Part shown: in pieces, positions 9,407 to 13,373 of the stretch
Position numbering within the stretch: the stretch's first letter is position 1
Layout of the letters: every line of letters begins with the position of its first letter
Assembly (NCBI GenBank): GCA_027459645.1
Contig: DAIDHQ010000006.1
Span: 186,001 to 250,000 of the forward strand
Origin: Vulcanimicrobiota bacterium
Lineage (GTDB): Bacteria > Vulcanimicrobiota > Vulcanimicrobiia > Vulcanimicrobiales > Vulcanimicrobiaceae
Direction: 5' to 3'
DNA: 64,000 nucleotides
Translations under genes and position numbers: made by a program
The notes under the pieces: model-generated
What the model saw: the letters and a program-made list of their open reading frames with translations, nothing else
Told to the model about the DNA's origin: nothing
The model's database searches: none

Positions 9407-9783
9407 CGAATCGCGGTTTCCTGAGCGGAGACGGCGCGCCATTGCCCGGCTTGTAATGCAAAAACATCGGTGAAGCGCAAGCGCACCACGGTACGTCCGT
9501 GCGACGAGATCGTGTTGATGCCGCGAACGATGGCAACGGTTCCTTCGACGGTCACCGTTTCATCGCCGATTTTCTGTTGGAACGGCTTGGGTTTCGCCGC
9601 GGTCCGCAACGCTTGGTCGCGATTCTGCACCTCACCACGATAATCGATATGCACGAACTCCGGCGCGAGGATCGTCGCAACGGCCGCCGCGTCGCGCGCT
9701 GCAAGCGCTTTGACCCACGCCGCCTCCACGTTGAGGACGATCTGCGCGACCGGCGGCGGGCTCGGTGGCGGCCACGGCATCAC
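9403..9783 (-). CDS. NTF2-like (DUF4440/SnoaL) protein
   Basis: 126 residues with a GTG start overlapping the aminotransferase stop (GTGA). The cone-shaped NTF2-like pattern is visible: a helix with WVKALAARDAAAVATILAPEFVHID followed by alternating strands ending in WRAVSAQET. The fold serves as a small-molecule enzyme or binding domain; no catalytic residues can be named. Likely cotranscribed with the upstream aminotransferase. Confidence 0.75.
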   Translation of the reverse strand: MMPWPPPSPPPVAQIVLNVEAAWVKALAARDAAAVATILAPEFVHIDYRGEVQNRDQALRTAAKPKPFQQKIGDETVTVEGTVAIVRGINTISSHGRTVVRLRFTDVFALQAGQWRAVSAQETAIR

Positions 9784-10943
9784 ACGCCGGCCGCAACGCG
9801 TCCGAGCAGCACCTGCGACGCCGCCGCGACGCCCATGCCGAGCGAAACAGCCGCACCGAGATCGGCCAGCGCAAGTTCGATCGCGCCGATTGCACCAAGG
9901 AGATCGCTCTCGCTGACGTCGCCCATGGTTCCCATGCGCACGATCTTTCCGGTCAACTCGCCTTGGCCGCCGGAAAGCACGACGCCGTAGCTTTCGCGCA
10001 ACGTCTTTAACAAAGCGGAGGCGTCGACGCCGTGCGGCGGCACCGCCGCAACGACGGTGACGGAATGCGCGTCGCTACGCGAGAAGATCGAAAAGCCAAG
10101 CGTCTCAAACGCGGAGCGAATCGCCGATGCATAACGCGCGTGACGCGCGAAGTTTGCGTCGATGCCTTCGGCGTGGTAGCGCTCTAACGAAACGGCGAGC
10201 GCGTAAAACACCGAGATCGGCGGCGTCCATGCCGTCTGGCCTTTTCGTGCGAATTCGCGCGCCTTGCGCAAATCGAAGTAATAGCGATGCGCCTTCGCGT
10301 GCTCGATCGCGTCCCAGCCGCGATCGCTCACCGCGACCATTGCAATGCCGGGCGGAACGGCGAGCGCCTTTTGCGAGGCCGACACGACGATGTCGTAACC
10401 CCATGCATCCATCTCGAAACGGGTGGCGCCCAGCCCGCTTACGGCATCTACGACGCGAAGCGCCGGGTGATCGCCGATGGCTCGCGCGAGCGTTTCCATA
10501 TCGTTTTGCACGCCAGTGGACGTCTCGTTTTGCGTGAGCAGGATGCCGCGAATCTCGCGCGCGGTATCGCGCTTTAGGCGCTCGCGCAAAGCATCGGCGT
10601 CGACGCCGGCGCCGAGCGGCGTGTCGAGCTCTTCGACGGTGCATCCGAACGTGCGCGCGATATCGGCCAGACGCTTCCCGAAAGCGCCTACCGGGCACGA
10701 GAGCAGCAGGTCGCCCGGACTAAAGGCGTTGGCAACCGCCGCTTCCAAGCCGCCCGTTCCCGACGAGCCCAAGAACAGCACGTCGCCCTCGGTACCGAAG
10801 ATCGGGCGCATGCCGCGTTCAAGGCGGGCAAGCAGCTCCGCAAATTCGGGGCCGCGATGGTTGATCATCGGCCATGCCATAGCCTCGAGGACGGGTTGGG
10901 CGACCGGTACCGGGCCGGGCAAGAGAAGCAGCGTCTTCTTCAT
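9780..10943 (-). CDS. Class V aminotransferase (serine-pyruvate/alanine-glyoxylate type)
   Basis: 387 residues. PLP fold type I with the N-terminal LLLPGPVPVAQPVLEAM signature, the SSGTGGLEAA phosphate-binding segment, Asp in VVDAVSGLGA and the Schiff-base Lys in SASQKALAVPPG. These match the alanine-glyoxylate, serine-pyruvate or phosphonate-linked aminotransferases. The amino donor cannot be settled by sequence alone. It heads a two-gene unit with the NTF2-like protein. Confidence 0.88.
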   Translation of the reverse strand: MKKTLLLLPGPVPVAQPVLEAMAWPMINHRGPEFAELLARLERGMRPIFGTEGDVLFLGSSGTGGLEAAVANAFSPGDLLLSCPVGAFGKRLADIARTFGCTVEELDTPLGAGVDADALRERLKRDTAREIRGILLTQNETSTGVQNDMETLARAIGDHPALRVVDAVSGLGATRFEMDAWGYDIVVSASQKALAVPPGIAMVAVSDRGWDAIEHAKAHRYYFDLRKAREFARKGQTAWTPPISVFYALAVSLERYHAEGIDANFARHARYASAIRSAFETLGFSIFSRSDAHSVTVVAAVPPHGVDASALLKTLRESYGVVLSGGQGELTGKIVRMGTMGDVSESDLLGAIGAIELALADLGAAVSLGMGVAAASQVLLGRVAAGV

Positions 10944-11043: not shown

Positions 11044-12003
11044 ATGAAGACGCTCCTCGAACTTCCGGTCGAGTTTTCCGAACGGCTGCGCGTGACGCTC
11101 GCGCAGAGCGTCGAATTGGACACCCCGGAGCTTTTCATCGAATTCGCTGCATGGGCGCAAACGACGCTGATCTTCCGAGGCTACACGCCTGCGACGCTGA
11201 ACCGCGCGATCGAAACCCTTGCTTCCGACGCCACGCTGGTCAATGCGTCCGACCGTAAGGCCGCGCTTTCCACGGTTCAGCAGGCACGAGCAACCCTCAA
11301 CGTCGTGCGTCTCTGCGAGATGTCGCTGATCGATGCGGAAAGCGAAAGTGGAGCGGCCGCGCGGCGCTATCTCGAAGCGCTGCTGGAAGGGGACGAACCC
11401 TCGGCCGCGCGCGAAGCGCTGCTCGCGATTGCAAAAGGCCGCAAAGCTCTGGACGTCTATCAGGAAATCATCACGCCGGCGTTGCACGAAGCGGGGCGCC
11501 TTTGGCAGCGAAACGAGATCACCGCCGCGCACGAGCACGTCGTCAGCAATGCGAGCGAACGAATCCTGGCGCAGTTGATGGATCTGGCTCCGCCGCGCGC
11601 ACATAGAGATTTGAGCGTCGTGACCGCGGCGATCGGACCGGCGCAGCATCAGATCGGCGCTCGCATGACCGCCGATGCGTTTGCGATGTGCGGGTGGCAC
11701 GCGCGTTTTCTCGGCTCGGAATTGCCGACCGACGACCTGCTGCGATATGTCGACGAAATTTCGGTCGATGCCGTCTGCCTTTCCGCAACGCTTGCCTGCG
11801 ACGTCGTCGCGGTTCGCGATCTCATTCAAGAACTGGAGACGCGGCCGATCGCGCCGGTCGTTATAGCCGGCGGCCGCGCATTCGACGCGCACCCGGACTT
11901 GTGGCGAAAGATCGGCGCGGACGCCTATGCGCCCTCGCCTCTTCTGGCGGTTGCAATCGCCAACGAATTGATCTGCCACGACTGCGACGATTCCGGCGGC
12001 TGA
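11044..12003 (+). CDS. Cobalamin-binding CarH-like sensor lacking a DNA-binding domain
   Basis: 319 residues from the ATG at 11044. Residues 1-100 are an unrecognised helical N-terminal domain, not a MerR helix-turn-helix. Residues 105-185 form the B12-cap helical bundle with the CarH signature Wx9EH (W154, E164, H165). Residues 190-310 form the Rossmann B12-binding domain with H202 of the HxxG loop (QHQIG) and the GSELP and VIAGG segments. H202 should be the lower cobalt ligand. The His that follows the Trp in Thermus CarH is Gln here. The stop overlaps the MFS start, implying a linked role. Confidence 0.8.
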   Translation: MKTLLELPVEFSERLRVTLAQSVELDTPELFIEFAAWAQTTLIFRGYTPATLNRAIETLASDATLVNASDRKAALSTVQQARATLNVVRLCEMSLIDAESESGAAARRYLEALLEGDEPSAAREALLAIAKGRKALDVYQEIITPALHEAGRLWQRNEITAAHEHVVSNASERILAQLMDLAPPRAHRDLSVVTAAIGPAQHQIGARMTADAFAMCGWHARFLGSELPTDDLLRYVDEISVDAVCLSATLACDVVAVRDLIQELETRPIAPVVIAGGRAFDAHPDLWRKIGADAYAPSPLLAVAIANELICHDCDDSGG

Positions 12004-13373
12004 TGCGCGAACGCATCCGCACGAGCGAGCGCTACCGATGGTATGCGCTGGCCGTCATCATGCTCGGATCGATGATGGGTACGCTCGACGCCTCGATCGC
12101 AAACGTCGCGATTCCGAAGATCGCGCAGGTCTACCACCACTCGCTCGACGACGCCGAGTGGGTCGTGCTCTCGTTCATGCTGGTTTCGGCGTCCACGCTC
12201 GTGCTGTTCGGTCGCTTGGGCGACATGCTGGGCCAAAAGCGTATCTATCTGACCGGTTTTGCGATCTTCGGCTTGAGTTCGCTTTCGTGTGCGCTCGCGC
12301 CGTCGATCGTCTGGCTGATCGCCTCGCGCGCGGTCCAAGCGCTCGGCGCGGCGATGCTGGTGTCGTCCAACCAGGCGCTGATCGTCGACACGTTTCCCGC
12401 GCAGATGCGGGGACGCGCGATCGGTTTCAACGGCGCGGCCGTCGCGGTCGGCTTGTCGCTCGGGCCGATCATCGGCGGTGCGATCGTGACGTTCGGCGAT
12501 TGGCGCTGGATCTTCCTGATCAACGTACCGATTTCGATCGTCGCGCTCGTCGGCGCAGCGATCGTGCTAAAACGCGCGCACCACGAGGCGAGCGGCTTCG
12601 ATCCTCTCGGTGCGCTGCTTTCGATCGCCGCACTCTTTTCGATCTCGCTGCCGCTTTCGCGAGCGCACGTCTGGGGCTGGACGTCGCCTTGGACGATTGG
12701 CTTGCTGGCGGCCGGCTGCGCGTTGCTCGCGGTGTTCGTCGCCGTCGAACGCCGCGTCAAGGTGCCGACGCTGGACCTCGCGCTCTTTAAGAGCCGCGTC
12801 TTCGCCTTCTCCGTTCTCGGGGCGCTGGTGTATTTCGTCGCACTCGCCGGCCTGATTTTCATCGTTCCCGTCAGCGCGCAAACGGCGTTGCACTACTCCG
12901 CCTTCACGGCCGGCTTTCTACTGATGCCGATCACCGCACTCAACATCGTGCTCGCCCCGCTTGCGGGCGCGCTTTCGGATCGCATTCCGGTACGATACGT
13001 TTCTACGACCGGCGCGATCGTCGTCGCAATCGGACTCTTTCTGCTCTCGCGACTTCCGCCGCAACCACCGCTGTGGGAGCTCATCGCCTTTCTTGTGGTA
13101 GCGGGCGCGGGCACGGCGGTCTTCAGTCAACCCAATAATAGCGCGATCATGGGATCCGCACCGCAGAATCGCCGCGGTATCGCCGCCGGAACGCTGGCGA
13201 CCGCGCGCACGACGGGCCAACTGCTCGGCGTCGCGGTCGCAGGCGCCGTATATTTTACGGCGGAGGCGCAGTTAAAGACGCACGGCGTTTCGTTCGCACC
13301 GGCGACGCGCTACTTTTTAGTCACCGCGTGTATCATGATTTTTGTCGCCGCAATTTCGTGGATTCGCGAATAG
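12003..13373 (+). CDS. MFS transporter, DHA2 (EmrB/QacA) family
   Basis: 456 residues with 13-14 predicted membrane helices. Family motifs include the LDASIANVAIPKI segment in helix 1, GRLGDMLGQKR (motif A) and GLSLGPIIGGAI (motif C) of drug/H+ antiporters. It should export a small molecule using the proton gradient. The ATG at 12003 overlaps the B12-protein stop (TGATG), which suggests that the B12 protein controls or serves this exporter. Substrate unknown. Confidence 0.9.
   Translation: MRERIRTSERYRWYALAVIMLGSMMGTLDASIANVAIPKIAQVYHHSLDDAEWVVLSFMLVSASTLVLFGRLGDMLGQKRIYLTGFAIFGLSSLSCALAPSIVWLIASRAVQALGAAMLVSSNQALIVDTFPAQMRGRAIGFNGAAVAVGLSLGPIIGGAIVTFGDWRWIFLINVPISIVALVGAAIVLKRAHHEASGFDPLGALLSIAALFSISLPLSRAHVWGWTSPWTIGLLAAGCALLAVFVAVERRVKVPTLDLALFKSRVFAFSVLGALVYFVALAGLIFIVPVSAQTALHYSAFTAGFLLMPITALNIVLAPLAGALSDRIPVRYVSTTGAIVVAIGLFLLSRLPPQPPLWELIAFLVVAGAGTAVFSQPNNSAIMGSAPQNRRGIAAGTLATARTTGQLLGVAVAGAVYFTAEAQLKTHGVSFAPATRYFLVTACIMIFVAAISWIRE

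Follow-up and report, generated by a model that had tools for sequence, protein, structure and literature searches.

What does a protein sense, and on what does it act, when a CarH-like B12 domain is joined to an N-terminal segment of another kind and encoded directly in front of an exporter gene? The question is posed by an open reading frame at 11044-12003 (+) of the window (the whole stretch of 64,000 nucleotides analysed here), in which the original prediction had seen a CarH-type photoreceptor signature preceded by about 100 unrecognised residues. Judged from its sequence, the product is probably a soluble adenosylcobalamin (AdoCbl) photosensor that derives from a photocobilin and has lost the biliverdin site, and an AdoCbl-only light sensor acting by protein contact appears to be the most likely description of it.

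The frame is free of stop codons, translates into 319 residues and is conserved, with 45-55% identity, in six further genomes. Its overall layout and the features of its B12 domain are as follows.

11044-12003, + strand: whole open reading frame, a truncated photoglobin followed by a CarH-like B12 domain, 319 aa
11359-11577, + strand: four-helix B12-binding_2 domain, residues 106-178 (Pfam PF02607, 2.7e-15)
11614-11949, + strand: Rossmann B12-binding domain, residues 191-302 (Pfam PF02310, 3.1e-13)
11503-11538, + strand: W154-x9-E164-H165 motif, with Q155 following the Trp (W, E and H invariant in 11 of 11 homologues)
11641-11649, + strand: A200-Q201-H202, containing the predicted lower axial His ligand, with no acidic residue at position -2

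Both Pfam matches are far above chance, and W154, E164, H165 and H202 lie exactly where they had been predicted, H202 being likewise invariant in the 11 aligned homologues. The W-x9-EH motif is the one that caps the adenosyl group in CarH and photocobilins, and all 10 genomes examined for cobalamin adenosyltransferase encode it. In a search of solved structures, the best relatives of the protein were the dark and light structures of SasPcob (8J2W/8J2X, 1.9e-25), followed by CarH (~1e-14). The CarH model scores 69.2 bits (cut-off 400) and aligns only from model position 82 onward, and no MerR or other helix-turn-helix match was obtained for the protein, which bears out the expectation that this domain is missing. 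The Gln at residue 155, where CarH has its light-state His, is also confirmed; it is not the oddity it had been taken for, since SasPcob carries Gln and AbDPcob Tyr at this position (PMC11796333). Within the subfamily of seven, the residue is Gln in five members and Glu in the other two (the G007/G077 pair).

The surroundings of the His ligand depart from the standard pattern. The acid of the E/DxH motif, two residues before the cobalt-ligating His, is kept in CarH, SasPcob, the host's own MetH, a B12-domain fusion from the same bacterial family (G009) and relatives from Azospirillum, Skermanella, Ilyobacter and Streptomyces, and it is absent from all seven members, which read A/G/S-x-H and retain the His itself. 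The SignatureFinder signature for light-responsive B12 proteins consists of four elements (GxxW, EH, GxxH and GxxxP), of which GxxW, EH and GxxxP occur in the subfamily, the last being present in the window protein and invariant across divergent members, whereas GxxH is displaced by one, with Gly four residues before the His. The lost acid and the displaced Gly lower confidence in standard photochemistry, and AdoCbl affinity or photochemistry may differ.

The N-terminal segment is, contrary to the original prediction, recognisable as part of a photoglobin. In a phmmer search of solved structures, the N-terminal 98 residues alone matched only SasPcob (8.7e-5); a profile of seven homologues found SasPcob at 4.6e-6, aligned to chain positions 268-323; and hhalign related the domain to five full photoglobins at an E-value of 1.4e-6 over 71 columns. 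The solved-structure search with the whole protein gave a second match to SasPcob, which placed query residues 19-60 on its C-terminal biliverdin-binding globin. These matches imply a domain order of globin followed by B12, the reverse of SasPcob and common to the Azospirillum, Skermanella and Ilyobacter relatives; the B12 domain lies at either end in different photocobilin groups (PMC10979010).

11083-11250, + strand: residues 14-69, homologous to the C-terminal half of the SasPcob photoglobin (biliverdin-binding) domain (8J2W/8J2X)
11152-11154, + strand: W37, equivalent of SasPcob Trp296 by ungapped alignment (six of the seven subfamily members have Trp)
11074-11076, + strand: F11, ungapped counterpart of SasPcob Asp270 (the other six members have Ile or Leu)

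In SasPcob, Asp270 holds biliverdin and Trp296 contacts both its D ring and the corrin; anchored on the His ligand, which is numbered 108 in the paper and 103 in the chain, these residues correspond to chain positions 265 and 291 of 8J2X. All five full photoglobins aligned contain an ED pair whose Asp lies 26 residues ahead of the Trp. In a gapped MAFFT alignment, all seven members share a deletion of about 30 residues, CVED among them. Under either alignment the biliverdin-holding Asp is gone. The missing stretch covers a helix together with the CxxD/ED motif. Consistently, the Pfam Phycobilisome model matched two full-length Azospirillum relatives, in A. thermophilum over the full length of the domain (residues 6-122, 3.7e-9), and none of the seven. 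That the missing helices are encoded upstream was considered and ruled out: the gap from the start codon to the divergent upstream gene is about 100 nt in the window, about 71 nt in G102 and about 71-105 nt in several members, and an in-frame extension ahead of the start spans only 7-24 codons in G001, G101, G102 and G103. An AlphaFold2 model built from two sequences (mean pLDDT 47) was too poor for testing the fold. A search restricted to the heme oxygenase family PF01126, with positive controls in three known genomes, found no such gene in the host (96.6% complete) or in ten relatives.

The N-terminal domain was found in 7 of the 149 genomes searched in the phylum, all belonging to one family, and no relatives were detected in viral contigs scanned with an 11-row profile. 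On a tree of the B12 domain, the seven members form a single clade (support 98/99), whose join to other photocobilins that tree does not resolve. Pairwise dN/dS is about 0.05-0.24 for the B12 part and about 0.2-0.57 for the N-terminal part, rough values given that dS is about 1 in the more distant pairs; being below 1 in both halves, they indicate selection on each of them.

The sensor gene is embedded in a conserved locus with the following neighbours.

12003-13373, + strand: DHA2/EmrB-family MFS exporter gene, start overlapping the sensor stop by 1 nt (TIGR00711, 258.6 bits; cut-off 230.2)
9780-10943, - strand: divergent class-V aminotransferase gene, about 100 nt upstream of the sensor, flanking the conserved locus

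The predicted overlap with an MFS exporter thus holds, the exporter ATG at 12003 beginning on the last base of the sensor stop codon. Conservation of the pair, which had been proposed as a check, holds in one direction: sensor and exporter are adjacent in all seven genomes (junction -4 to +5 nt), but 17 of the 24 genomes with a close exporter relative lack the N-terminal domain. Synteny extends over the whole block: PheT, CvpA, the divergent aminotransferase, the sensor and the exporter follow one another in this order in six of the seven genomes, the contig of G007 being too short upstream. Other genomes have the exporter at this place but no sensor: in G011 and G012 the aminotransferase gene directly adjoins it, and in G057 (L043:7324-8364) a gene with an AIRS domain (selenophosphate-synthetase-like) lies in the sensor's slot between aminotransferase and exporter. 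The sensor was therefore probably added to an older locus. Of the NCBIfam models, that of the aspartate-glyoxylate aminotransferase BhcA fits the aminotransferase best, with a score half of the cut-off. A search of the 64,000-nt window for Rfam RNAs, riboswitches included, found none. The operon-like coupling is suggestive of a joint function with the exporter and is no proof of it.

While the B12 domain and its cap motif, the photoglobin homology, the loss of the bilin site and the co-linear coupling to the exporter can be read from the sequence, we infer AdoCbl binding, photolysis, the oligomer change and the partner, and with them every photochemical statement made here. In the dark, AdoCbl would be bound base-off with His202 as the lower ligand, and W154 together with E164-H165 would cap the adenosyl group at the interface of a head-to-tail dimer. 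On illumination with green or blue light, the Co-C bond would break, whereupon the adenosyl group would depart, the EH helix shift and the dimer open. With Gln at position 155, a residue shared with SasPcob and thus indicative of the photocobilin mode, the resulting light state would contain a water-ligated cobalamin; the light structure of SasPcob is monomeric and carries water or hydroxide on cobalt (aquo/hydroxo-cobalamin) rather than a bis-His arrangement (PMC11796333, PMC10979010). The leftover globin helices, devoid of a biliverdin pocket, may cover the corrin edge and relay the change to another protein; the most plausible partners are a signalling protein and the co-translated exporter. 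Action by protein contact is a reasonable assumption by analogy: in vitro experiments have demonstrated it for standalone photocobilins (PMC10979010), and it fits with the observation that photocobilins elsewhere adjoin or are fused to signalling proteins, including HisKA kinase, GGDEF, PP2C/STAS and HATPase_c_2 proteins. A bolder version, in which a bilin-free "half-globin" photocobilin acts directly on the translationally coupled exporter and light thereby gates efflux through a B12 sensor, strikes us as improbable.

The reading as an AdoCbl photosensor has to be weighed against others that account for part of the same evidence. The protein may sense B12 levels rather than light, or serve as a cobalamin-binding scaffold that signals cofactor status, light function having disappeared together with the bilin pocket and the His-adjacent acid. 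The main argument for this is the lost acid combined with the displaced Gly of GxxH, both shared by all seven members, which have lost the bilin site as well; the weaker constraint on the N-terminal domain points the same way, as does the annotation of the conserved locus, in which no light-related gene was seen adjoining the sensor. However, the adenosyl-capping Trp and EH and the GxxxP motif are invariant across divergent members, as expected if capping is still selected, and we regard a B12-level sensor as possible yet rather unlikely. At the other end, a full photocobilin would still bind biliverdin in the remnant globin through a different geometry and respond to red light. It could appeal to the Trp296 equivalent in six of seven members and to AbDPcob, in which His replaces the Asp and biliverdin is nevertheless weakly bound with a red-light response (PMC10979010). 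Given that the missing helix and CxxD/ED motif are not hidden upstream, and that the heme oxygenase search was negative in all 11 genomes, this strikes us as very improbable.

A corrinoid methyl-carrier protein of the MtbC/MtgC/MtaC type, serving a methyltransferase, is hardly credible. Models of such proteins do match, at 2.1e-10 at best, but all scores fall far below their cut-offs (40.5 versus 350 bits, and others likewise), the acidic residue of the DxHxxG motif is absent, no methyltransferase is found among the annotated genes of the conserved locus, and the Trp/EH adenosyl cap would be left without a role. Two established identities were also tested by their defining features and rejected: a CarH would have a MerR-type DNA-binding domain and a His after the Trp, neither of which is present, and a true photocobilin would have Asp270 and the E/DxH acid, which are likewise lacking. 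The putative AdoCbl photosensor is for this reason classed as neither, although its sensor core is predicted to work like that of a photocobilin or of CarH.

The 2024 description of photocobilins presents them as sensors with two pigments. The present clade has kept the B12 cap and shed the biliverdin site; if the AdoCbl-photosensor reading is true, this would mean that the globin can be used as a pigment-free mechanical element, and such a clade would test whether B12 alone drives the output. The published four-element light signature, strictly applied, would miss relatives such as these seven.

Among known systems, CarH of Thermus thermophilus (5C8A-5C8F) shares the B12 domain and the W-x9-EH cap with the window protein, which differs in lacking the MerR helix-turn-helix, in carrying Gln for the light-state His and in having a globin segment instead. 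The photoglobin-B12 proteins of Azospirillum, Skermanella and Ilyobacter (L030-L033) resemble it in domain order and cap motif at 20-35% full-length identity, but have E/DxH and a longer N-terminal domain, which contains CVED in Azospirillum and Skermanella; the Azospirillum and Ilyobacter genes, moreover, neighbour a kinase or GGDEF gene and no exporter. On two Azospirillum plasmids (L030:7812-10181 and L031:7839-10133), a full photoglobin-B12 gene has a histidine kinase gene close behind it, forming a candidate light-signalling pair, and on a plasmid of Ilyobacter polytropus (L032:7809-9852) the end of a photocobilin-like gene overlaps the start of a GGDEF gene, an arrangement resembling the published photocobilin-cyclase fusion divided into two genes. 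The G009 fusion mentioned above (L042:8929-10503, - strand), a relative of the window protein, combines HATPase_c_2 (an anti-sigma-type kinase domain) with a middle region and a B12 domain in which ER replaces EH after the Trp.

Closer parallels are provided by the solved photocobilins. The photoreceptor domain of AbDPcob (8J2Y; PMC10979010), with its replaced Asp and weak biliverdin binding, offers a precedent for drift away from bilin, although it retains a complete globin scaffold along with a GGDEF output domain. SasPcob from Saccharothrix syringae (8J2W/8J2X; PMC10979010) has a CarH-like B12 domain, the Trp/EH cap, Gln after the Trp and a homologous globin segment with the Trp296 equivalent, and is likewise a standalone protein without a DNA-binding domain; by contrast, the window protein is globin-first, its globin is about 30 residues shorter and without Asp270, it lacks the E/D two residues before the His ligand, and its host yielded no heme oxygenase gene. 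By homology, the nearest precedent is therefore the photocobilins of 2024 and not CarH. What is unusual, as far as these comparisons go, is a derived clade without the bilin-site stretch and the -2 acid, represented in seven genomes and syntenic within one bacterial family.
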